64,000 bases of DNA from Nematocida parisii ERTm1 (taxonomy: Eukaryota; Microsporidia). The notes under the pieces were generated by a model. That model was not told the origin of the DNA, searched no databases, and saw only the letters and a program-made list of their open reading frames with translations. Below are positions 9,928 to 56,464 of this stretch, one piece after another (the stretch's first letter is position 1; each line of letters starts with the position of its first letter). The DNA lies in assembly GCF_000250985.1 (NCBI RefSeq), contig NW_013524648.1, positions 421,441 through 485,440 on the forward strand, read 5' to 3'. Made by a program: the position numbers and the translations under genes.

Positions 9928-10479
9928 TGTCTTGTGCTTAAATATAAATAGCTCAGGTTATATCTTAACTACTTATTTCTTGTTTCTACCTCTCCCTGGT
10001 TTATTGTGATATGTATTGTTGTATGCTAAGAATAGCATTTGTTAGCATGACATGAGTTATTGTAATGTTTTACATAAACATGACACAGCTCAGACTAGAT
10101 CAGAAATTATTGTTACACAGCATGGCAACATAATTTAAATTGATTTTACGGTCTATAAATACGTATACAAATTCAATAAAAGTCAAAGTTTAAGAATGCC
10201 TTTTCCTAAGAAAACAACTTGTATTGTAATGCTCTTAATATAATTTAGTATAATTAGAATATTTTATTCGTGTGCTTTAATAAGCTATATTCTATATTTA
10301 TTCTATAAGTGAATTTTGAATCATCCTACTTCTACTTAATTATTTTGAATTATATGTCGGATAAATCATCTTGTGTTCTTATATTCTCTATAAATTTCTC
10401 ACCTTTCTCTTTTCTCATTATAATGTATAAATTATATAAAATACCTTTGCTATGTTTAATTATACTGTGGTAGTATTGT
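9928..10479. other. Intergenic stretch with no recognised gene
   Basis: About 550 bp of AT-rich sequence between the right inverted-repeat arm and the stop of the septin gene. I see no ORF, tRNA or strong repeat. A structured RNA cannot be excluded by eye. Confidence 0.5.
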
Positions 10480-43742: not shown

Positions 43743-44267
43743 TTATTTATCCTCATAAAATGCTGATATTGTTTCCTTTACTTTTGATTGGTCTCTCCAT
43801 GTAATATAGTCTTCCATTGCCCTGGTTATAATTAAGGATGGATCTGTTATTGTGTCTATACCTAATTTTACATGTCCATCCTTTATGAAAGTAACTGCTG
43901 TTTTTATGTCCTGTACCATATCTATGCGTGGTAATAAGGTAGAAAGTCTTCTTTTACAGAATGAGCCCACACTTACTTTAGCACACTCTAAAAGGGTTTT
44001 TGTGTTTATTATACCCAATGTGTATAATTTATTCGTTAACTCCCTGGTTATTATTTGTTTGGTTGGTTCATTATCATTTAACTTTGCCAGTGCGAGTGCT
44101 AGTCTTCTTATTTTTCCTACAATAATATTATATTTTACGTACGTCTCTCTGTCCTCTATGAAATATTTACTTGTGGTCATTTGTTCTTTCTGTGTGGATG
44201 TTCCCTTCCACTCCAGCAAATCCACTTTCTTTAGAAGTTTCTGCTCGTGAAATTTCAGCTGCCGCAT
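43743..44267 (-). CDS. IMP3: U3 snoRNP protein IMP3
   Basis: IMP3 is an S4-domain protein of the small-subunit processome that helps U3 snoRNA pair with pre-rRNA. The 174-aa product matches IMP3 along its whole length: RQLKFHEQKLLKKVDLLEW at the N terminus, KLYTLGIINTKTLLEC, then the S4 part SFCKRRLSTLLPRIDMVQ and FIKDGHVKLGIDTITDP, ending RAMEDYITWRDQSKVKE. The ATG at 44267 aligns with the family start; the upstream in-frame codon is TTG. VPS13 begins 20 bp beyond its stop on the same strand. Confidence 0.95.
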   Translation of the reverse strand: MRQLKFHEQKLLKKVDLLEWKGTSTQKEQMTTSKYFIEDRETYVKYNIIVGKIRRLALALAKLNDNEPTKQIITRELTNKLYTLGIINTKTLLECAKVSVGSFCKRRLSTLLPRIDMVQDIKTAVTFIKDGHVKLGIDTITDPSLIITRAMEDYITWRDQSKVKETISAFYEDK

Positions 44268-44717
44268 ATTCTTTTGCAAAAATTTCTGTGTTAAGTATTT
44301 TCAACGACTCTTCAAATTGAAAATTACTCTAAAAATATTCGGAGAATGAATAAAGTATACTTATTGGTCTATACATATAATAAACTGTACTGGTTGAATT
44401 TCTAGTGGTTTTAATGTGGTTTTAATTGGTTTTATAATTAAAACATTAATAATTATTGGTTTTTTACTGTAATTTTAAATATATTGCGTATATTCAGTGT
44501 ATTACGTATATATTACGCATATTATATGGTATTTATGCTTATTTATGTGTATTTTTATTACTTATACTTGAATTATTTTAAAATAAGAAAAATAAAAGTG
44601 TATCCAAATTCCTTTGACAGTTTTTTATTGTACTGGAAATGTTTCAGAAATACAATAATTCCATAAAAATAAAATAGGATAAGCAGTAAAATATACTAAA
44701 TTTACCAGATTATACAT

Positions 44718-44736
44718 ATCGGGTTATGTCGGGTTA
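44718..44736 (-). promoter_or_regulatory. TAACCCGAT motif dimer, 10-bp period
   Basis: ATCGGGTTATGTCGGGTTA on the + strand, with an exact 10-bp period. It lies about 450 bp upstream of the IMP3 start and on the 3' side of the secreted-family gene. Confidence 0.55.
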
Positions 44737-44879
44737 TGTATAATTATTAAATATAATATTCATTTACGTTTAATTTGGCTTATTATGGTTATATTAATGA
44801 ATATTATACGTACTAGTAATTGTTTTCTTAGAATAAGTATCTTAAACTTGGTCATTTATTTAAGTTTTAACCTTTATAC

Positions 44880-45030
44880 CTTAATTAACCCTTTAAGGAG
44901 TATAAATATCTTCAGGTATTCTATTAACCCTTTATATTCTATTATAATCTAATCTAGTTCATGTATGCAATATATGTATATTGCATAACTCATAATAATC
45001 CTATTACGCTAGGCTTATCATACAATATAA
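44880..45030 (+). repeat. Diverged intergenic repeat, copy 2
   Basis: It resembles 5990-6135, with shared segments around AACCCTTTAAGGAGTATAA, GTTCATGTATGCAATATATG and TACGCTAGGCTTATCATA. Both copies lie next to the 3' side of a secreted-family gene, in opposite orientation relative to that gene. Confidence 0.55.
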
Positions 45031-45181
45031 GTACTATTATACGACTAATTACTTATTACCACTGACTTATAATATTATGGACGTATTCTGATTTTTATTG
45101 TATTATAGCTTATACCACAGTAATAATTAATTTTAATTAGGTGGAATATGACTTGTATACGCTTTATAATGGAGATATGGG

Positions 45182-47401
45182 TTACTCAATGGATTTATTA
45201 TGGGCACCATCACATTTACTTATATCAAATAATTCCTGTCTACTTGTGACATAACAACTACTGCACACATTTAATATAAATTTAGTAATGCATTCCTTAC
45301 CTGGAGTCTTCCATATACTGGCATCTGTACTGTACGCTTTCAGTAGTTCTTGTTTATACGGTATATCCCGTATATCCCCCATAAGGAATAATCTATTTAT
45401 GTTTATAAGGTGTAATTCCATAGAAATGGGTTTGCACATACTAATTTGTTCTTTAACCCAATTACTGTCATAGTTCTGTCTACATGCACTATTTAAATAA
45501 TGCAATAGAATTGATTTTATAAAGGACTCAGGCAGGTTATCAATGGCTGCTTGTATATTATTATAATTCTGGTTATTGCTTAATTCTGAATTATCCTGTG
45601 GTGTATTTGGTACTGTATCAATTATAATACCACTGGGCTTAATCGCCATATAAAATGAGTCAGTGGACACTTCTCCAAAATAATCTATGCACAGTTTACT
45701 TATGAATATGTCTTTGTTTGTCTTGGATGTATCACTAATGTACATGTCTGCTGTATCCTCCACATATACATTTATATCTGTATCCATGGAAATCAAAGAG
45801 AATACGTTATTTATAAGTTTAATCACTTGATTTCTCATCTTTTTAGTCAGGTTTCTACTAGACTTACTCTGCAGTAGTTGTACTTCATTAAATTTATTCG
45901 TTATTTCCTGGTCATTCACTCCTGATATGTGCATAATAACACTTAGCATGTTCAATAACCCAGATGAGAGTTGTTGCTTGTCAGTTCTCATGTACATTAT
46001 ATTAGTATCAATTAAATCAGAAACTACTTTATTCCAGTCATTATGGATGTCTCTGGTGGTTACTTCAAACATATTCCTGTACCTAGTGAAGAACCACTTG
46101 AGCTTTTTTGATGGATTTGGTATTTTATCTGTTTTGTGCATGTCTGTATGAATATCGTACGTAAATCGACAGAATAATGCAAGAAGTGCTGTTTCCGTGT
46201 AATTTATAAATTCCCTCGGATTTTCAGTTATATTCTCTGATTCCTGTGATAAATCCATTGCTTGCCAGTCATCTACTGTATTATTATCAGAAGTATCCGG
46301 GAATATCCGTATAGGCGTATACTTCAATGGGAATGTAATCGGCCTTAACCCCTTCATATTAAATATACTCCGTATTTCATCTGCAATACTTATAAGGCCT
46401 GCTTTATTATCACTAGAATCATCCACCTGTATAAAGTACTTATTGTATAAGTCCCTGGCTAAGTGTTTATTATTACACTCCTCACGGCTTTCCATATAAT
46501 ACACCAGAATATTCTTTATGGTTTTCATGATTATATAGTACTCCTTGGCATTCTTAGTATACTCACTTACGTACATCTTTATAAGGAATTGTGGACTGTT
46601 TAAAAAATATCCATTTTTAAAGTCTTCATACGTACTTGGCTCTGTGTACGCATTCTTACTAATAATATTATTATTCCTATTTCTTATGAAGAAATTAATT
46701 ATTTCGTATGCTTCTGTATAATATATTGTGCCATTATCACTGTTATTTATATGGTCATCCATTCTCATATTAATGGCAATCCCATTTTTATAACCTATTT
46801 TCTCAATAACCAGAACTTGATTAAATTCATCCCCTGTGAATGAAATGGGGATGTCCATTCCTTCTGATAATAATTGTAATATTGCCAGTATATAAGATGC
46901 CTTCCTTCTAACCCTACTATTAACAAGAAACCCATAAAAAGAGTCTTTTTTATACGTACGTATGCCGAAGTATCCATTTAAAGATGGGAACATTCTACAG
47001 AATGTTTGGTAGTGGTCATCTAAGTACTGGACTGTTGGACTTTTACTATTCTGTGTGATTAATACAGTATCTTCTAGACAGTTCCTTATGTACGTATAAA
47101 TTGGATTTTTACTGTGGGTTTTATCTATTTCTATGCCGAAGTTCATGGACACCTTTGATGAGTAATTTCTCATGTTAGATGCAGCACCAATATCTCTAAG
47201 GATGTACATTCCCAGGGGGTGACCTGTTCCTTGTTCATTTATTATTACTTTTTGACCTTCTTTAGTGTTGATTGTCATTGTTTGTAATTCTTTCATTTCT
47301 TCCATACTTAGTCTACTGTATATTCTGTTTATAAGCAGTATCTGTACTATTATGTATACCTTTATTAGTAATACTCTATTTATACTACTAGCACTATTCA
47401 T
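45182..47401 (-). CDS. Divergent member of the large secreted family
   Basis: The 739-aa product starts with a signal peptide (hydrophobic VLLIKVYIIVQILLI). It is clearly related to the three genes at the start of the window: YHQTFCRMFPSLNGYFGIRT parallels the YHQTL/FPS block, LLSEGMDIPISFTG parallels LLAEGVDVPLKIEG, TEPSTYEDFKNGYFL parallels AEPRTHEDFKTGKFL, and a DWNKVVSDL-type block is present. It is about 200 residues shorter, lacking the C-terminal part, and much more diverged. It stands alone among housekeeping genes. Likely secreted, function unknown. Confidence 0.82.
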   Translation of the reverse strand: MNSASSINRVLLIKVYIIVQILLINRIYSRLSMEEMKELQTMTINTKEGQKVIINEQGTGHPLGMYILRDIGAASNMRNYSSKVSMNFGIEIDKTHSKNPIYTYIRNCLEDTVLITQNSKSPTVQYLDDHYQTFCRMFPSLNGYFGIRTYKKDSFYGFLVNSRVRRKASYILAILQLLSEGMDIPISFTGDEFNQVLVIEKIGYKNGIAINMRMDDHINNSDNGTIYYTEAYEIINFFIRNRNNNIISKNAYTEPSTYEDFKNGYFLNSPQFLIKMYVSEYTKNAKEYYIIMKTIKNILVYYMESREECNNKHLARDLYNKYFIQVDDSSDNKAGLISIADEIRSIFNMKGLRPITFPLKYTPIRIFPDTSDNNTVDDWQAMDLSQESENITENPREFINYTETALLALFCRFTYDIHTDMHKTDKIPNPSKKLKWFFTRYRNMFEVTTRDIHNDWNKVVSDLIDTNIMYMRTDKQQLSSGLLNMLSVIMHISGVNDQEITNKFNEVQLLQSKSSRNLTKKMRNQVIKLINNVFSLISMDTDINVYVEDTADMYISDTSKTNKDIFISKLCIDYFGEVSTDSFYMAIKPSGIIIDTVPNTPQDNSELSNNQNYNNIQAAIDNLPESFIKSILLHYLNSACRQNYDSNWVKEQISMCKPISMELHLININRLFLMGDIRDIPYKQELLKAYSTDASIWKTPGKECITKFILNVCSSCYVTSRQELFDISKCDGAHNKSIE

Positions 47402-47479
47402 GAGATTTTTATTTTTAATTTTATTTTATATGCAATGTGTAATTAATTTTATTGATCTCTGGTTATATAATTTATTAAT

Positions 47480-47552
47480 GCATAAATAATTATACTATGT
47501 GTAATAAATAAGGTGAATATGCATAAATAAGTATACTATGTGTAATAAATAA
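47480..47552. repeat. Short tandem duplication, period about 41 bp
   Basis: GCATAAATAATTATACTATG and GCATAAATAAGTATACTATG, both followed by TGTAATAAATAA, start at 47480 and 47521. Confidence 0.75.
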
Positions 47553-47703
47553 TATTTATTACTGTATGTCTTATATATAATTGTAATTTTAAATATTTAA
47601 GTATGCTAAGACTTATTCGTGTACGCATTAAAAGTAATTATAGTTTCTCTAATATTTTTGATATTGTGTGTAATAAATAATATTTATTACCAATAGTGTA
47701 TTA

Positions 47704-47931
47704 AGTAATTATAAGATATAAATGATATTTTAATAAATTATATACGGTTATTACTTATTACCAATAGTGTATAAAGTGTTATTTATTATTAATGTATTAC
47801 TTATTACCTATTACTTATTATTTATTACTTATTACCAATAGTGTATAAAGTAATTATAAGATATAAATGATATTTTAATAAATTATATACGGTTATTACT
47901 TATTACTAATAGTCTATAAAGTGTTATTTGG
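47704..47931 (+). repeat. Direct repeats with a 145-bp offset
   Basis: An 80-bp segment at 47704-47784 recurs at 47849-47931 with few changes. Between and around them the unit TTATTACTTATTACCAATAG and its variants recurs. The whole 47402-48093 spacer is A/T-rich and simple. It is not duplicated after the retroelement-like ORF, so it is not an LTR. Confidence 0.75.
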
Positions 47932-48093
47932 TATTTATTACTTATTACTAATAGTGTATTATTTATTATTTATTATTAATATATTACTTATTATATATAG
48001 TGTATATAGTTGTTATTTTTATTTACACAGTGTGTTATTAATTTTAATTAATTATACTTATAACTATAAATTAAATAAAAGTATAAATTTACG

Positions 48094-51000
48094 ATGGAAG
48101 TTTATAAAGGAACCAAGGATAAAGAAGAAAATCAACCAGAACACATAAAAACACTCACAGAAACAGAAATAAAAGATATAAAAAATAAAGAACCAGTAAA
48201 TCAGGGAGAAGAAAAATATAATAAGAAAGTTACAGAAGATAATTATAATAATGGACAAGTTAACCACAGAAATAATGAAAATATGAGTATAACCCGAATA
48301 ATCACTAAAATCAGCAATATTAACTTGAATGATTCAACTGACAGTATTATAACTGTATTAGATGGGATATGGTCAGAAGAGGATAAAAATGAAGATATTT
48401 CATGGAGTGGCCGTATAAAATTAATTATTAAAGGGATTACCACAGGAAGCATAAAGAATCCAGAAATATTGAAGAATGCCCTAAGGAAGTATAAATATTT
48501 ATTGGGAGAGGATGAGGATAAGAAATTAAATGGTAATTCAAGTGAATTATGTGGGGAAGTAAGAACAGGCCTATTAAGGATAATAGAGGCGTATAAGAGT
48601 ATAAGTCCATATATATCACGGGGTGATAAGCACAGGATGAGTTATTGGGAGAATTGGGTATATAAAAAAGTGCTTGATTCTGCTGTGTATAATGAGAATT
48701 CAATAGATACTCTTAGGGGAGAAATAATGGGGAAGGAAGGTTTATATCCTGAGAAATGGCAATTTATAAATTGGGATGGGCCACTGTGTGATATAATTAA
48801 ACAATTACTGCGTACGTATAAGTCAGATAATGAAGATACGTATATGAGAAATGAGGATAATTTACGCATACATTTAGGGAAGGGCACTTTTAATAAGAAA
48901 TACTGTAATTACTGCAAGAAGAAGAATCATTCAGAAGATGAGTGTTATAACAAGGATGTATCAGATGAATTATTAGATGATAGGGCACGGATGGAGAGTA
49001 GTAATGATGATATTATAGTATATATTGGACCAAAAAGGATCAGTTGTAAATTAGACAGTAGTGCGTATGTTAATTTTATGGGGTATGATATGTACAGGTC
49101 TATTCCAAAGAAGTATATTATTAAAGAATCAGAGTGTAGAAGTAGAAGTATATCTTATACTGGGACTGAAGATATGGTTATTCCAGAGAGGGAAGTATTT
49201 GTAAATATTATGTATAAAAGGGAATTACTAGGGAAGTGTTCATTTTATATTACACGGAGTAACTCGTGTAAGGCCATAATAGGAAAGGAATTAATGAGTA
49301 TAATATTTAATGTAGACAGGGTTAAATTAGAATCAGAACGTATATGGACCAAGAAAGAGAGTAAGAAGGAAGTATTTAAAGATGAAGAGGGGACAATGGA
49401 GGAGTATAAGGAAGAAAATGAAAAATCACACAGACGGCGTAAAGATGGGATTATGATATTTAATGATAAAAGTGGGCATAAGAAAAGAGTAGATGAATAT
49501 TCCAGTACATACAGAAGGGGAAGAGAGGATGGTAATTCATACCGTACAGAGAAAAAGAAGGACTTAGGATGGATGAGTGCACTAAAAGATTCTTGTATGT
49601 CATATAATGACTTTAAACTTATTATGCAATCTGTTGACACTGTAGAAGTAACTGGGAAAATAGAGCCAGTACAATTAAATACTGTACTGGGAGAGTGTGC
49701 TTGGGATAAAAGGATTATACCCAGAAAGAAACTAGAAGAAGCACAGAGGAGAGTGTGTGAGTTTATGAGGGAAGGAGTTATAGTGTCAGCTGAGAAGAGT
49801 GAATGGCTAGTTCCTGTGCAGATTATAAAGAGACCCGATGGTCAATTAGGTGACTGTCTTGACTTAAGGGGACTTAACCAAATAGCAGAACAGGATAAGT
49901 ATCCCCTTCTAAATATTACTACTATTACTGATGACATAATAGAAATGAAGTACTTTACAAGGATAGACACAATGGACGGGTTCTTTAGTATACCGTTAGA
50001 TGAAAAGGACCAGGAAAAAACAACATTTAAAGTTGACAAATCCTACTACAAATTCGCAGTTCTCCCGATGAGCTTTAGAAATGCTCCGCATATTATTCAG
50101 AGAGTAATAGAGAATATTCTAAGCGAATTATTAAGGGTTTGCTGTGTAGTATACATAGACAGTATACTTATATACTCAAAAGACATGGCCAGCCACAAAG
50201 AGCATATAACAGAAGTACTAAAGAAAATAAAAGAGTACGGAATGGAAGTAAATTGGAAGAAAGTATCTCTGGCAGTAGAGGAGATAAAATATCTTGGGTA
50301 TAGGATAGGGTATAATACAATTGTACCGATAGAGTCTAGATCGCAGGGAATAGAAGAATATTCCGTACCAATGAGCAAGAAGCAGTTAAAGCGGTTTATA
50401 GGGTTACTTGGGTGTAATCGAAGATTCCTTTGGAACATATCAGAGATACTAAAACCACTACACGCTCTTACAAGAAAGGATGTGCCATGGAAATGGACAG
50501 AAGTACACCAAGCAGCATTTTTAAAGGCAAAAACCAAGCTAATTACAGCGACAGAGCTAGTAGTACCAGACTACACAAAGAGGTTTACACTGGAAGTAGT
50601 TGCATCAAACAGCGGGGTAGGCGCAGTACTAAAACAAGACATAGGCGTAGTGGGGTATTATTCAACAATACTGAAAGAGTCAAAGAAGAATTATACATTT
50701 GCTGAAAAAGAGCTATTTGCAGTTGTATGGGCAATTAAAAGGTGTAAATACTATCTTCGTGGGGTAGAGTTTGACTTAATGACAGACCATCAAGCAATCA
50801 CATACTGCCAAACACTGTCTGACTCAGGGAATATACGCATTAACACATGGAGTCAAATTTTGGATGACTACTCATTTGTACCAAACTATCAAGAAAAGTC
50901 TGCAATGGTTCAGGCAGATGCATTATCTAAATCATTTTGTAACTTACAAGAAGAATGGGAAGACATGAGCCATCCGTACTTAGAGAGAATATATAATCTA

Positions 51001-51186
51001 CAGTCAGAACCTCTAACTGAAGAAGAGAAGGTGATACTACAAAAACATAAAGAATGGGACCATAGAAAGGCAATAAGAAGAGAATTATTAGACAGCCAAA
51101 TATATGTTACAGGCAAGGATCTTAGAGTAATACTGGATAAGTGCTTAATATGCCTAGAAAGAAGCAGTATAGACACAAATTCATAA
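48094..51186 (+). CDS. Ty3/gypsy-like Gag-PR-RT-RNase H ORF with altered catalytic sites
   Basis: The 1030-aa ORF has the domains of a retrotransposon polyprotein in order. A Gag-like region ends in a zinc knuckle (C271, C274, H279, C284). A protease-like motif DSS at 321-323 replaces D-S/T-G. A reverse transcriptase has D625 in motif A (RIDTMDGFFSIPL) and LPMSFRNAP. Its motif C, however, reads YIDS (D689, S690) instead of YxDD. In the RNase H domain V836 stands where the first catalytic Asp is expected, while E873, D898 and D942 remain. The end (CLICLERSS) may be a remnant of the integrase zinc domain; no integrase core follows. No LTRs were seen. An intact frame of this length with lesions in three enzymes fits a co-opted gene (inference); a recently dead element is the alternative. 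Confidence 0.85.
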   Translation: MEVYKGTKDKEENQPEHIKTLTETEIKDIKNKEPVNQGEEKYNKKVTEDNYNNGQVNHRNNENMSITRIITKISNINLNDSTDSIITVLDGIWSEEDKNEDISWSGRIKLIIKGITTGSIKNPEILKNALRKYKYLLGEDEDKKLNGNSSELCGEVRTGLLRIIEAYKSISPYISRGDKHRMSYWENWVYKKVLDSAVYNENSIDTLRGEIMGKEGLYPEKWQFINWDGPLCDIIKQLLRTYKSDNEDTYMRNEDNLRIHLGKGTFNKKYCNYCKKKNHSEDECYNKDVSDELLDDRARMESSNDDIIVYIGPKRISCKLDSSAYVNFMGYDMYRSIPKKYIIKESECRSRSISYTGTEDMVIPEREVFVNIMYKRELLGKCSFYITRSNSCKAIIGKELMSIIFNVDRVKLESERIWTKKESKKEVFKDEEGTMEEYKEENEKSHRRRKDGIMIFNDKSGHKKRVDEYSSTYRRGREDGNSYRTEKKKDLGWMSALKDSCMSYNDFKLIMQSVDTVEVTGKIEPVQLNTVLGECAWDKRIIPRKKLEEAQRRVCEFMREGVIVSAEKSEWLVPVQIIKRPDGQLGDCLDLRGLNQIAEQDKYPLLNITTITDDIIEMKYFTRIDTMDGFFSIPLDEKDQEKTTFKVDKSYYKFAVLPMSFRNAPHIIQRVIENILSELLRVCCVVYIDSILIYSKDMASHKEHITEVLKKIKEYGMEVNWKKVSLAVEEIKYLGYRIGYNTIVPIESRSQGIEEYSVPMSKKQLKRFIGLLGCNRRFLWNISEILKPLHALTRKDVPWKWTEVHQAAFLKAKTKLITATELVVPDYTKRFTLEVVASNSGVGAVLKQDIGVVGYYSTILKESKKNYTFAEKELFAVVWAIKRCKYYLRGVEFDLMTDHQAITYCQTLSDSGNIRINTWSQILDDYSFVPNYQEKSAMVQADALSKSFCNLQEEWEDMSHPYLERIYNLQSEPLTEEEKVILQKHKEWDHRKAIRRELLDSQIYVTGKDLRVILDKCLICLERSSIDTNS

Positions 51187-51456
51187 AGAATGTCTTTTAT
51201 TTAAATGATAATACAAGAACCAAGAAGAGTATGCCATGTAATATGCTAATTTTAGTATAATACACAAAATAACTCAAAAAGTAAAAGTAGAAATAGTAAG
51301 TATATTCTACAAGTAGATAAGAATTGAATAAAGACAAGTTTCACAGATAAGATTATACAAGAAATAAGGTAGAATCGATTTTATTCAATTAAAGAGTATA
51401 TTTGACAGTTATTCAAAAACTGGATTTGTTAAATACGGCACTAATATTTTTTTATA

Positions 51457-52266
51457 ATGCTTACACTGCTGGGACTAGGCCTGGAGCCAACAGACATTTC
51501 TTTAAAAGGACTTGAGCTAGCAAAAAAAGCAGATGCAGTGTATCTAGAGAAGTATACAAGCATTGTATTAGATGAGACAGAAATAGAGCGTGTAATAGGA
51601 CGGGAAATCAAACAAGCGTACAGAGAGGATATAGAAGGATCAGATGGAGGCGATCCACTGATCATAAAAGAAGCTCTTGATAAAGATATAGTATTATTAG
51701 TAGTAGGTACTCCTTTATTTGCCACCACACATACAGAATTACTTATTCGTGCACAGGAACTAAAAATAGGTATAAATGTACTGCACAATGCATCTATACA
51801 GAGTGCCATGGGGTGCTGTGGGTTCAATTCATACGGATTTGGTAAAACTGTCTCAATTCCATTTTTCATTGACAACTGGAGACCGTACGACTTTATAAAG
51901 AATATTATGACAAATTTCAATAACGGTCTACACACACTATGCCTACTCGACATAAAAATAAACGAGCCAACAATTGCCACACTCATGGGACAGGAGAATG
52001 TAAGATATAACCGGTTTATGACAATTAATGAAGCAATTTCACAAATAGAAGAAGCTGCAGATAAGTGTGGTAATACAGAATTAAGCAATATAAAGATTGT
52101 TGGAATAGAAAGACTCGGACAAAAAACAGAAAGGTTCGCATATGGGACATTAAGTGAGTTAAAGGATAAGGAATACGGACCTCCTCTGCACTCAATAATT
52201 ATTCCCTCAGCGCATGGCAATGCAATGGAAAAAGAGTGTGTTGAAAGATTCTTTGCCAGTAGATAA
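51457..52266 (+). CDS. DPH5: Diphthine synthase DPH5
   Basis: DPH5 methylates the modified histidine of elongation factor 2 on the way to diphthamide, using S-adenosylmethionine. The 269-aa product has the family blocks: LTLLGLGLEPTDISLKGLE, ADAVYLEKYTS, VLLVVGTPLFATTHTEL, NASIQSAMGCCGFNSYGFGKTVSIPFF and the LCLLDIKINE segment. The end IIPSAHGNAMEKECVERF also fits. Length is near that of yeast Dph5. The start is the ATG at 51457, after a T-rich run. Confidence 0.96.
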   Translation: MLTLLGLGLEPTDISLKGLELAKKADAVYLEKYTSIVLDETEIERVIGREIKQAYREDIEGSDGGDPLIIKEALDKDIVLLVVGTPLFATTHTELLIRAQELKIGINVLHNASIQSAMGCCGFNSYGFGKTVSIPFFIDNWRPYDFIKNIMTNFNNGLHTLCLLDIKINEPTIATLMGQENVRYNRFMTINEAISQIEEAADKCGNTELSNIKIVGIERLGQKTERFAYGTLSELKDKEYGPPLHSIIIPSAHGNAMEKECVERFFASR

Positions 52267-52359
52267 TTTTATATAACTATCAGAAATAAATAACTGTCAA
52301 ATTATCATATATCCCATTAAATTAATGCATATTTATTATAGAATTGGTTTATTGTATAT

Positions 52360-53325
52360 CTAGTATTATACATGGAGACAATATGCGCCTCAGTGGTGGC
52401 ACTGCACCTCCTGCTGCTGTTTATCGTGCCTCTAGGGCGGCCGTAACAAGTTAATGTTTTTGACTGCTAGGGGTAGAGGAACGTGGCTTATAAAGTAGGG
52501 CCTTATAAGGCCACTCCTTAATGGGTTGATGGCACTGAGATATAGTGCCACCGCGCAAGTAATACTAATGCTACGGTCTACGCACTGGGCCTTAGTTTCA
52601 GGAAAGTCCCGGAACATAGTCCTCCATGCGTGTTTAGGTAACTTCTCCCCAAGAAGCGCATCGACCAAGCCGTTCATCGATACTTGAGATAGTGCGCCCA
52701 TCTCCAACCGCACAGACCGAGCCAGAGGAGCTCTTGTTAGAGCCCTACTCTCTTGCAAGTGCAGAAGAGCTGATGGACAATCCTCTCTTCCGGAGGCAGA
52801 GGGAGAAATATCTCCTGAGCACTGGCCAGCCTGAACAAGTTGTTCTATAACCCGAATAATCCCAAACAACAACCTGAAATATGTACACACGCGCTGTCGT
52901 GCACTCTCCTGGGCAGGAAAGGAGTGCCATGTACATGCACCGTGTATTGCTATAGAATAAATTATCAGAACTGCGTATTCATTCGTATTGTATGCACTGC
53001 ACCCATATACAGGCACCCTGCATTTACTTCTTTTGATTTATTACATAGTTCATTTTCTGTCTATTGCCTCTTCTATACACTCTTCATATACTACTATAGA
53101 TTACTAGTTGTTTCTCACGCCTTCTCTTTTATTATGCCACACAATCACACGAAGTGCACCCTGCCACCTTGTATACAGTCTGTACATGCACATTAGTGTG
53201 TGTGCATGCTCAGTCTATTCGCTGTGTAGTTGTTTCACACAGCATTCACTTCTCTAGACTCTTCTAGACACTATACATAGCCCGGAAATAGACTGCAGTG
53301 CAGCCGAAACACCATATATACAGTT
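52360..53325. other. Anomalous GC-rich block next to the gap
   Basis: From about 52380 to 52960 the sequence is much richer in G and C than any neighbour, then grades into C/T-rich sequence up to the gap. It contains short palindromic pairs such as AGTGGTGGCACT and GGCCTTATAAGGCC. A 194-codon minus-strand frame (52432-53016) crosses it, with no family I recognise. It could be a fragment of a repeated or structural-RNA region, or a foreign insertion. No rRNA could be confirmed by eye. Confidence 0.5.
52848..52856 (+). promoter_or_regulatory. TAACCCGAA motif (single)
   Basis: Exact motif at the right side of the GC-rich block. Confidence 0.35.
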
Positions 53326-54116
53326 NNNNNNNNNNNNNNNNNNNNNNNNNNNNNNNNNNNNNNNNNNNNNNNNNNNNNNNNNNNNNNNNNNNNNNNNNNN
53401 NNNNNNNNNNNNNNNNNNNNNNNNNNNNNNNNNNNNNNNNNNNNNNNNNNNNNNNNNNNNNNNNNNNNNNNNNNNNNNNNNNNNNNNNNNNNNNNNNNNN
53501 NNNNNNNNNNNNNNNNNNNNNNNNNNNNNNNNNNNNNNNNNNNNNNNNNNNNNNNNNNNNNNNNNNNNNNNNNNNNNNNNNNNNNNNNNNNNNNNNNNNN
53601 NNNNNNNNNNNNNNNNNNNNNNNNNNNNNNNNNNNNNNNNNNNNNNNNNNNNNNNNNNNNNNNNNNNNNNNNNNNNNNNNNNNNNNNNNNNNNNNNNNNN
53701 NNNNNNNNNNNNNNNNNNNNNNNNNNNNNNNNNNNNNNNNNNNNNNNNNNNNNNNNNNNNNNNNNNNNNNNNNNNNNNNNNNNNNNNNNNNNNNNNNNNN
53801 NNNNNNNNNNNNNNNNNNNNNNNNNNNNNNNNNNNNNNNNNNNNNNNNNNNNNNNNNNNNNNNNNNNNNNNNNNNNNNNNNNNNNNNNNNNNNNNNNNNN
53901 NNNNNNNNNNNNNNNNNNNNNNNNNNNNNNNNNNNNNNNNNNNNNNNNNNNNNNNNNNNNNNNNNNNNNNNNNNNNNNNNNNNNNNNNNNNNNNNNNNNN
54001 NNNNNNNNNNNNNNNNNNNNNNNNNNNNNNNNNNNNNNNNNNNNNNNNNNNNNNNNNNNNNNNNNNNNNNNNNNNNNNNNNNNNNNNNNNNNNNNNNNNN
54101 NNNNNNNNNNNNNNNN
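53326..54116. other. Assembly gap (791 N)
   Basis: A run of undetermined bases. Frames that appear to cross it have no meaning. The neighbouring GC-rich block suggests a repeated sequence caused the break (inference). Confidence 0.99.
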
Positions 54117-54994
54117 ACTGCTGTATCTGTCTGGATACTCTTCATCTGTATGTACCCCTTTGTTCGTAAATAAAAAGAAAATAGAAACCTTCTCTTCTTT
54201 TCATATTCAATCAAGTTGTATATTTATAATCATAATTATAGAGAACATTCTCTTCACAGATGAATTATGCTTAGCAAACAAATTATAGAATATTCTACGG
54301 CTTATTAGTATTATGAGCTAGTGTATTTACTATTTCAATTTTAACCATTTCTATTCTGGATCTCACTATCCAAAACCAACGACCAACAATACTAATATAT
54401 TTTGCTTCGATTAATGAAATAGCTAGTAGTTAATGTTTAAATAGGAATAAGAACAAATCATTTATATTTGTGTTCATGTTATAATTATAGTGTAATATTG
54501 ACTGTCTTATAACATTGTTTTCTATGTCTAATTATTTACATGATTTCGTTTCTGTATTTCTCATATAAATCCGTGTTTCTAATATATTATTAGTATAATC
54601 CGTCTGTATTATTTTTACAATAATTTCTATTTCTGTATTTCTTTATTTTTTTATAAACCCATTCACTGAAGATATTTAAATTTTATAGTTTTATAAGAAT
54701 ATTTAAAATTCATTTTTATTATAAATAGCTAGAATTTATATACTTACGTATATACACTTAATATACAAATGATTATTACTATATTGATGTATATTAGTGT
54801 ATACACAGTGTAAAATCAATTATACTTCTTAAGTCAATATAAATAAGGAATGGGTGTGCTTCTGGATGAGATAGTCTAAAATATTTATGATTCTTGATAA
54901 AATTACTTTATTTTAGGTATTAAAAAGAATTATTTCTATGAGTTATTGACTTAAAGGAAGCAAATAATTTTGAGTTATCGGGTATGCAGTAAGT
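54117..54994. other. AT-rich spacer without genes
   Basis: About 880 bp of A/T-rich sequence between the gap and the stop of HisRS, with no convincing ORF or RNA gene. Confidence 0.55.
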
Positions 54995-56464
54995 TTATAT
55001 CTGTGCCTTAAGAATTTCTTCTTCTGAATCTGCTTTATCATTGGGTGTATCAGAGCCATTTTTAAGAATTTCTTCTATCTTAGTGACAAGATCTGAAATA
55101 TGAACACTTACCTTTTCTCTGGTGTTCTTGCTCCCCCAAATGATTTGGTACTTTTCTTCTTCTATTTCTTTTCTTCCTATAAGCACCAGAACATTCACAC
55201 CTGCTGATTCTGCATATTCACTGTGCCTAGTGAAATTTCCCGATTCTCCCATAAAGTACTCAGTGTTTATCCCATTATTACGTAAATAAGTACACATTCG
55301 GATCCTTTCTTCTAAAAGATTGGAGCCAACTGAGCATACCATAACCTGAGTGGGCGTCTTCTTGTCGTTTGCACTCACCACACTGAATAATCGGCTTACA
55401 CCCAGACTGATTCCTACACATCTGATTTCTTCTGTGTTTTTATTTGTTGGCTTTTTCTTGTTTTTCACTTTTAGCTTAGTATTAAGATCCTGCGCAAGAG
55501 CCGGGTCTTCAGAGTTCATGGTCAGTATATTATTAACAAGCCCGTCATATCTGCCTCCTGCCACTAGTGTTCCTTCCAGTCCAACATATCCTCCTTCTAA
55601 TAATATTCCAGTGTAATAATCTAATCCTCTAATTAGACTCACATCAAGAACAATTTTATCGTCTACACCATATACAGTAAGCAGCTCTTGTAATCTTTCC
55701 AGATCCTTTATTGCCTCCTTTCCCACCAGTGTCTGCCCTATCTCATTCTCTTTAATTGCACTCAGAACTTTAAAAGACCCTTTAATACAAATTGCTTCTT
55801 TTATCTTGGCAATCGATTCAACAGAAGCCCCTTTCCCTGCCATTTCCTCAGAAACTTCTTCCCATGACATTTTGTCTAGTTTGTCAATGGCACTGCCAAT
55901 TGGTCCACATAAAGATTTTTCTATACCACATACTTCCATTAAACTATCTACTAATTTTTTGTGGTTTAGTCGGATGTACACTTTATTATTGCCTCCCAGC
56001 ACATCCTTTGAAAAATTGTCCAAAATAGTGCAGGCGGTGCTAACTATCTCAGAATCGGCTGCCATATGTGCGTACTCTCCAATAATATCAAAGTCACTTT
56101 GGTAAAACTCTCTATACCTTCCTTTGGCTAAAGCAGGCTGGTCTCTTCTAAACACCTTTGCCGTGTGGTACCTCTTCATTTTTACAGTCTTTGTCATTGC
56201 CAAATACCTAGCCAAAGGAACTGTTAGATCGTACCGCAGTGCACACAGTTCACCCCCCTGATCTGCCAGATCATAAATAAGCTTGGAGTCTTCTCCGTAT
56301 TTGTTCATTAGAATAGATTTTATTTCAAATGTGGGTGTGTCAAAAGGAACTCCTCCCCTTTTTCTGTAAATATTCTCTACCTCCTGAATAATCCTGTCAA
56401 GCACCATTTTATCCTGTCCAAAATAGTCTCTGGTACCCTTTGCTGTTTTAATTAACTGGTCCAT
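54995..56464 (-). CDS. HTS1: Histidyl-tRNA synthetase
   Basis: This enzyme charges tRNA-His. The 489-aa class II protein shows LRYDLTVPLARYLAM, motif 2 with GRYREFYQSDFDIIGE, the histidine-specific SLIRGLDYYTGILLEG, and motif 3 with GISLGVSRLF, followed by the anticodon-binding domain (VMVCSVGSNLLEERI onwards). A short acidic tail ends it. The start ATG is 24 bp from the start of the divergent TMEM120-like gene. Length fits a cytosolic eukaryotic enzyme without the N-terminal WHEP domain. Confidence 0.97.
   Translation of the reverse strand: MDQLIKTAKGTRDYFGQDKMVLDRIIQEVENIYRKRGGVPFDTPTFEIKSILMNKYGEDSKLIYDLADQGGELCALRYDLTVPLARYLAMTKTVKMKRYHTAKVFRRDQPALAKGRYREFYQSDFDIIGEYAHMAADSEIVSTACTILDNFSKDVLGGNNKVYIRLNHKKLVDSLMEVCGIEKSLCGPIGSAIDKLDKMSWEEVSEEMAGKGASVESIAKIKEAICIKGSFKVLSAIKENEIGQTLVGKEAIKDLERLQELLTVYGVDDKIVLDVSLIRGLDYYTGILLEGGYVGLEGTLVAGGRYDGLVNNILTMNSEDPALAQDLNTKLKVKNKKKPTNKNTEEIRCVGISLGVSRLFSVVSANDKKTPTQVMVCSVGSNLLEERIRMCTYLRNNGINTEYFMGESGNFTRHSEYAESAGVNVLVLIGRKEIEEEKYQIIWGSKNTREKVSVHISDLVTKIEEILKNGSDTPNDKADSEEEILKAQI

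Follow-up and report, generated by a model that had tools for sequence, protein, structure and literature searches.

RTL1/PEG11 of mammals is described as one long, conserved frame of Ty3/Gypsy origin that runs through gag, protease, reverse transcriptase (RT) and ribonuclease H (RNase H), with altered RT and RNase H sites (PMC2799525), and DRT2 of Saccharomyces cerevisiae, a yeast without RNA interference (RNAi), is described as a domesticated Ty1′ GAG that restricts Ty1′, related mobile copies being present in the species (PMC10951436). For microsporidia, Parisot et al. (2014) placed four Nematocida parisii consensus polyproteins in a tree of long terminal repeat (LTR) elements (PMC4202319). 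The window analysed here is a stretch of 64,000 nucleotides of N. parisii ERTm1 (contig NW_013524648.1, positions 421,441 to 485,440), and its subject is an open reading frame (ORF) of 1030 codons at 48094–51186 on the + strand. We find this ORF best explained, at what we judge to be about even chances, as a co-opted (domesticated) gene from a Ty3/Gypsy-type element, without an integrase core or a recognizable LTR pair. Judged from sequence, a conserved Gag-Pol-derived gene would be new for microsporidia within the open-licence literature searched, in which we found no report of one (subscription papers lie mostly outside it), domesticated retroelement genes being known elsewhere.

The ORF lies on contig C3 of an 11-contig, 3.98-Mb assembly, starts with ATG, contains no internal stop and encodes a protein of 1030 amino acids (aa) that is 100 % identical to N. 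parisii NEPAR05_1893. The cluster to which the protein belongs names 'ncbi,nr' as its only sources, and the older ERTm1 and ERTm3 protein sets may therefore lack it; RNA-seq reads of N. parisii have been mapped to ERTm1 (PMC9762603). The frame encodes, in order, a gag-like region, a zinc knuckle, a protease-like region, RT and RNase H, and closes after an integrase HHCC motif. Pfam recognizes RVT_1 at residues 590–738 (4.4e-29) and two RNase H models (2e-24 and 2.7e-24), and the best solved relative is the Ty3 RT (4OL8), which matches residues 547–947 with an E-value of 1.2e-59. Since 1030 codons are open and give these matches, the frame is not a chance one, and a chance frame or annotation artefact was ruled out. 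An earlier note, made from the DNA letters alone, had reported an intact ORF with its zinc knuckle kept, and both observations stand. That note had also reported the absence of integrase, which holds for the core, for which Pfam gives no match in the ORF, but not for the N-terminal HHCC motif, which is kept. The motif was read by eye against P0003, one of the Nematocida proteins described below, which has the same motif with an integrase core after it; it is visible despite the lack of a Pfam H2C2 match in the ORF. The flanks hold no integrase remnant at E 10 when searched by tblastn with the C-terminal 260 residues of either P0003 or P0004, and residues 300–412 give no Pfam match to a protease.

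A protein search over 5.8 billion proteins, in which the 7984 candidates sharing most words were scored, gave 61 matches, five of them with Nematocida names (P0001–P0005). P0002 (NEIRO03_1450, other name NEIRO02_2198), from Nematocida sp. AWRm78, is an unbroken protein of 1024 aa that is identical to the ORF protein at 902 of 1024 aligned residues (88 %; 88.1 % in the simulations) and shares with it DSS in the protease-like region, YIDS at RT motif C, V836 and the C-terminal end point. Identity is 45/61 (74 %) in residues 1–64, 149/188 (79.3 %) in the gag-like region (65–255), 30/31 around the knuckle (260–290), 96/113 in the protease-like region (300–412), 65/77 in 413–489, 52/56 in 490–545, 202/215 (94 %) in the RT (546–760), 177/187 in 761–947, which includes the RNase H, and 77/83 in 948–1030. 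Residues 1–480 are 81.2 % identical (385/474) as against 94.0 % (517/550) for residues 481–1030 (Fisher test, 2.7e-10), conservation being highest in the zinc knuckle and RT–RNase H and lowest in the gag-like part and the residues N-terminal to it. Between N. parisii and N. ironsii ERTm5 the average identities given by Reinke et al. are 84.7 % for proteins and 92.3 % for nucleotides (PMC5423893), and at 88 % the ORF protein is therefore somewhat more conserved than average.

When the ORF DNA was subjected to neutral substitution until its protein reached 88.1 % identity, the mean number of stops was 10.3, 8.9, 7.8 and 6.7 under four mutation models, and 0, 0, 0 and 3 of 2000 runs stayed free of stops; these simulations used substitutions only, without indels, and are valid whichever species AWRm78 is. 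At a neutral divergence of 7.7 %, the identity expected in residues 481–1030 is approximately 0.84–0.85 (maximum 0.885, four sets of 300 runs), whereas 0.94 was observed. The replacements are conservative, with a mean BLOSUM62 score of 0.279 against −0.195 to −0.333 for the stop-free null, a mean that 0, 0, 8 and 8 of 5000 null draws reached (the test used 111 of the 122 replacements, those one base change away). A dead element that drifted neutrally and remained stop-free by luck would fit the lack of a similar copy and of an LTR pair, the loss of catalytic residues and the lack, among the scored candidates, of an annotated counterpart beyond the close pair of ORF and P0002. It is nevertheless very unlikely, since drift predicts 6.7–10.3 stops and leaves at most 3 runs in 2000 open before frame-shifting indels are even counted, and since the constraint is uneven and the replacements conservative. 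Because the counterpart shares the lesions, stops are absent and the replacements follow this pattern, we consider it quite likely, on protein-level evidence from two lineages, that the ORF protein is under selection, as the earlier note had supposed. We hold with similarly good confidence the joint proposition that the altered sites predate the split of N. parisii and AWRm78, that purifying selection has kept the frame since then and that self-transposition is excluded; with neither an integrase core nor an LTR pair, the ORF cannot transpose by itself.

The active sites were read against the Ty3 RT, with the numbering of PMC5371799 and with residue correspondence counted by hand on the printed alignment. 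Ty3 residues D151, D213, D214, D358, E401, D426 and D469 correspond to D625, D689, S690, V836, E873, D898 and D942 of the ORF, which keeps five of these seven acids and has changed the second motif-C Asp (S690) and the first RNase H Asp (V836); motif B of the RT is also changed. Alignment to the solved Ty3 RT confirms the Val that the earlier note had seen at the first RNase H Asp, and YIDS does replace YxDD, although only the second Asp is lost and the first, D689, is kept. The protease had been thought altered as well; the DSS triplet at 321–323 is present, but it is no lesion of the catalytic Asp, D321 being retained and Ser standing only at the usual Gly position.

In Ty3, D151N and D213N are reported to abolish polymerase activity and D358N to abolish RNase H, whereas D214N and D214E retain polymerase activity in vitro with reduced processivity, and the polymerase active-site changes described are all lethal for transposition (PMC5371799). 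Ty1 D211N likewise retains activity in vitro, with a kpol 223-fold lower, and has lost transposition, a defect whose suppressors map to the RNase H domain (PMC2148107). The premise of the earlier note that these Asp residues are needed in Ty3-type enzymes therefore applies to RNase H but only in part to motif C. Because D358N abolishes the Ty3 RNase H and D358 corresponds to V836, the RNase H of the ORF protein is very likely dead, while its polymerase activity is uncertain and is not excluded; by analogy with the Ty3 mutants, the combination of a dead RNase H with a polymerase chemistry that is weakened but perhaps present is probable. These mutants also bear on a co-opted RT, of which the cell would use a weak polymerase or a stable RNA–DNA hybrid, RNase H being absent. 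D625 and D689 are kept, the Ty3 D214N and D214E enzymes polymerize in vitro (PMC5371799) and Ty1 D211N retains activity (PMC2148107), the RT is 94 % identical between the two lineages, and the relative P0003 has YIDN at motif C with the RNase H acids retained. However, the residue at the site is Ser and not Asn or Glu, a replacement absent among the Ty3 changes that PMC5371799 describes in the part available to us, motif B is altered, and in the sister C4 lineage (described below) the indispensable Asp of motif A is missing from both species, so that we regard a co-opted RT as unlikely.

The ORF protein matches eight places in the assembly including its own locus, the next best being 41 % identical with seven in-frame stops, and a protein search, extended at the DNA level for the 3′ part, found no near-identical copy. 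The earlier note had named near-identical copies with LTRs, or absence from close relatives, as marks of a recently dead element; the first are missing at this level of identity, and P0002 is present in AWRm78. A recently dead copy was rejected because there are no similar copies and P0002 is a counterpart. A self-comparison filtered for low complexity found no direct repeats in 44001–56000. An unfiltered repeat finder gave repeats inside the AT-rich 5′ array, none of them LTR-like, of which one also matches 45048–45073, past the next gene, and another 46646–46709; a pair of 26-base repeats, 85 % alike, at 48288 (inside the ORF) and 52846 is not LTR-like either. The array, at 47430–48044 upstream of the ORF, is tandem-like and contains two 145-base copies that are 83 % alike. 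The 5′ flank of the ORF has 128 matches across the genome, which resemble a widespread type of AT-rich array and were for that reason rejected as LTRs, and in a comparison of the 5′ with the 3′ flank 207 of 500 shuffles were as good.

The absence of flanking LTRs reported earlier thus holds for the pair, but a trace of a 5′ LTR is present. Positions 91–179 of the LTR of the C5 gag-only element (described below) match 48019–48094 with a score of 40, which none of 1000 order-1 and none of 1000 order-2 shuffles reach (maxima 36 and 39), and 18 control comparisons, at nine loci around AT-rich arrays on both strands, gave scores of at most 30. In the C5 element the gag ATG is at position 180 of the 203-base LTR. 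The 13-base match to the start of the LTR of the C1:939k copy was equalled in 150 and 193 of 1000 shuffles, and no trace of a 3′ LTR could be told from shuffled sequence (803 and 405 of 1000 shuffles as good). Among the neighbouring genes, DPH5 and one encoding a 739-aa protein have ERTm5 counterparts, both listed with a longest contig of 42,484 bases.

Table 1. Features of the 1030-codon ORF and its 5′ flank (window positions; residue numbers of the ORF protein in parentheses)
Feature	Position	Strand	Remarks
Possible LTR start	47601–47613	+	13-base match to 5′ end of C1:939k LTR (L041); not significant alone
Trace of 3′ end of 5′ LTR	48019–48094	+	Adjoins ORF ATG, as in C5 gag-only element
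Gag-like region (65–255)	48286–48858	+	Homologous to gag of LTR-bearing N. parisii elements; helices predicted, low confidence
Zinc knuckle CNYCKKKNHSEDEC (271–284)	48904–48945	+	C271-x2-C274-x4-H279-x4-C284
Protease-like region (300–412)	48991–49329	+	Triplet D321-S322-S323 at 49054–49062; catalytic Asp kept
RT (546–760)	49729–50373	+	D625, D689 kept; Y687-I-D-S690; S690 codon 50161–50163
RNase H (826–947)	50569–50934	+	V836 (50599–50601) at first Asp; E873, D898, D942 kept
Integrase N-terminal HHCC motif	51046–51153	+	H985, H990, C1017, C1020; core expected next not found

A search of the assembly with RVT_1 found six places, of which the five with Ty3-type RTs were examined and the sixth is C1:152083. 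At C1:939k, where YIDD and the first RNase H Asp are intact, the two 216-bp LTRs are 97.7 % alike. The 1145-aa frame of C1:38k is open and retains YMDD and the RNase H Asp; the supposed 50-bp terminal repeat of this element also matches several other loci, so its LTR status is unsure. No LTR pair was found for the ORF, C4 and C6 copies, none of which retains xDD in motif C or the first RNase H Asp, while in the aligned elements from outside DD is present in motif C in 15 of 15 and the first RNase H Asp in 14 of 15. The loss of LTRs alongside that of catalytic sites is a pattern in small numbers and not a test. C4 (L003 1507–3561, − strand) is a 684-aa protease–RT–RNase H frame without LTRs, its protease DSG kept. 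It is identical to the intact ERTm5 protein NEIG_01332 at 622 of 684 residues, ends four codons earlier than the ERTm5 frame, and shares with it the loss of the motif A Asp, the second motif-C Asp and the first RNase H Asp; neutral runs without a stop numbered 3, 15, 38 and 64 of 2000, a weaker case, taken alone, than that of the ORF. C6 (L044 4076–5452, − strand) is an open 458-aa RT–RNase H frame from which most catalytic residues have gone and which contains no stop. At C2 (L047 3952–5202, + strand) there is a 416-aa open frame with an rve-like domain (1.9e-06, under the Pfam cut-off) and no noteworthy Pfam domain ahead of it. None of the LTR matches ahead of the C4, C6 and C2 ORFs reached significance, and at C1:407k 15 of 500 shuffles did as well as the match to one LTR and 146 of 500 as well as that to a second.

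The C5 gag-only element (L045 3882–5846; C5:99881–101845) has an open 302-aa gag frame with a zinc knuckle and overlapping, identical 203-bp LTRs, and was probably moved by the enzymes of another element; its gag and that of the ORF are identical at 68 of 288 aligned residues. Its LTR family has at least 42 matches in the genome, 73–100 % identical (40 of 49 candidates scored); both LTRs of the element itself are counted among them, as are several partial matches and two pieces shorter than 50 bases. Together they suggest a long and recent history of movement. Within the window, a C5-family LTR, 99.5 % identical, lies at 10017–10219 (element sense +); no second copy of that length occurs in the window, and it is probably solo. 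P0004, from strain LUAm3 (named N. ferruginous in PMC10393165), is an open 1195-aa polyprotein with an integrase core match and altered motif A, motif C and RNase H sites; as a single sequence, it is a possible independent case of an element-derived altered polyprotein.

In an RT–RNase H tree of 24 rows, the ORF and P0002 form a pair (support 100/100) that joins the C4 pair (96/90) and then the other Nematocida elements (98/99 with C1:38k). By parsimony the fewest changes are two for the motif-C DD state and two for the first RNase H Asp, with that Asp scored as present in all outside rows, though P0042 has Asn there. How many independent losses there were is uncertain, given the long branches (2.71 for C6) and some poorly supported forks; the sites of the ORF and C4 may have been lost before or after the two lineages separated. 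A lineage that was mobile by trans-complementation until recently would owe its constraint to selection for transposition and not to a host role, and would be in keeping with the recent movement of related elements and with the slow pol and fast gag evolution also seen in active elements. Yet the ORF has no similar copy, LTR pair or integrase core, its altered sites and shortened end are common to both lineages, and the Ty3 polymerase-site changes described are all lethal for transposition (PMC5371799), which makes recent mobility highly improbable.

The full-length fold model has a mean predicted local distance difference test score (pLDDT) of 59.9, with ten-residue blocks at about 60–95 in the RT, about 60–88 in the RNase H and below 60 in gag. 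Of 1664 Foldseek matches, the 50 listed are all RTs or complexes that hold one, 8R0S being first and 4OL8 included; superposed on chain A of 4OL8, the model gives a template modelling (TM) score of 0.71 by target length and a root-mean-square deviation of 5.8. A prediction for the N-terminal residues, which the earlier note had suggested, was run on residues 1–300 and has a pLDDT of 41.6, with helices at low confidence, too poor for comparison. Co-opted gag-like proteins such as Arc and PEG10 assemble particles, and the ORF could similarly be a capsid-like gene in which gag assembles particles and pol is baggage; its gag is homologous to that of the gag-only LTR element and helical at low confidence, and its zinc knuckle is kept. 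The supposed baggage, however, is the better conserved part (94.0 % versus 81.2 %) and the gag model is too poor, so that we consider a capsid-like gene distinctly unlikely. As the gag-like part and N-terminus are least conserved, a purely capsid-like role, one of two that the earlier note had offered, is not favoured, whereas the strong conservation of the zinc knuckle and RT–RNase H fits nucleic acid binding, the other suggestion of that note having been RNA binding.

Microsporidian genomes are among the most reduced of any eukaryotes, and that of N. parisii, a parasite of worms, is very small; under such reduction a 3.1-kb gene of element origin should be kept only if it brings a benefit. 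For a domesticated gene, the single likeliest role that we can name, by analogy and tentatively, is that of a trans-acting repressor. A Ty3/Gypsy-type element would have lost its integrase core and LTR pair and become a host gene, whose protein would bind nucleic acid through the zinc knuckle and the RT–RNase H cleft and would join the Gag or RT of related elements, so that the particles or RT complexes formed would be non-productive. It would thus act as a trans-dominant repressor of those related elements with LTRs that have recently been mobile in this genome. The binding by the protein that this role includes, that of nucleic acid by zinc knuckle and RT–RNase H, is proposed just as tentatively, together with the repressor step.

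In favour of such a role, the genome search gave no domain match to Argonaute/Piwi (one positive, a prokaryote, among 14 control genomes) or to RNase III (eight positive among the 14, all prokaryotes), but these searches ignore introns and only prokaryote controls were positive. Several further points weigh against domestication and repression. The region that acts in DRT2 and in p22 is gag, which in the ORF ranks with the regions of lowest conservation. The Ty3 dimer residue R140 is Asp in both the ORF (D614) and the C1:939k copy, and R203 is Ser in the ORF (S677) and Arg in C1:939k (both hand-read), so that the Ty3 mechanism of dimer poisoning cannot be carried over unchanged. The apparent selection on the ORF has its support at the protein level, from two lineages; AWRm78 is inferred to be N. 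ironsii from the locus-tag prefix NEIRO, and the only other Nematocida species name among the 61 matches is that of the more distant P0004.

If the ORF does encode a repressor, it would represent a protein-based defence against elements in a eukaryote with no match to Argonaute or RNase III. That Nematocida, apparently without RNAi, more generally controls Ty3-type elements by conserved, catalytically dead proteins (the ORF, the C4 gene and perhaps the C6 ORF) is a doubtful extension of this idea. Were it so, near-whole Gag-Pol polyproteins, beyond gag fragments, may serve as trans-dominant repressors, possibly with several origins in the genus (N. ferruginous P0004).

Of the traits of mobile Ty3/Gypsy elements, the ORF has the Ty3-type RT–RNase H but no LTR pair, integrase core or repeated copies, while a frame kept across species under protein-level constraint, as expected of a domesticated gene, is found in two lineages. 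It resembles the Ty3 RT throughout RT–RNase H, unlike which it has Ser at the second motif-C Asp and Val at the first RNase H Asp. It falls in the same Ty3/Gypsy group as the sequences of Parisot et al., which were treated as elements, with no locus singled out as a conserved gene in the part of that account available to us (PMC4202319). Like DRT2, the ORF is an LTR-element remnant with mobile relatives in its own species, and the fungus appears in this case, too, to be without RNAi, but DRT2 is a gag of the Ty1 family with proven restriction, whereas the ORF is a nearly whole Ty3-type Gag-Pol known here from its sequence; a repressor encoded by it would parallel the yeast gene, built from other material. 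Among the cases known to us RTL1/PEG11 comes nearest: there, as in the ORF, a long Ty3/Gypsy Gag-Pol frame has been conserved although its catalytic sites are altered. RTL1 differs in lineage and in element family, and its strongest Pfam match is to gag, with an integrase core region still described, whereas in the ORF RT–RNase H is best conserved and no core was found.

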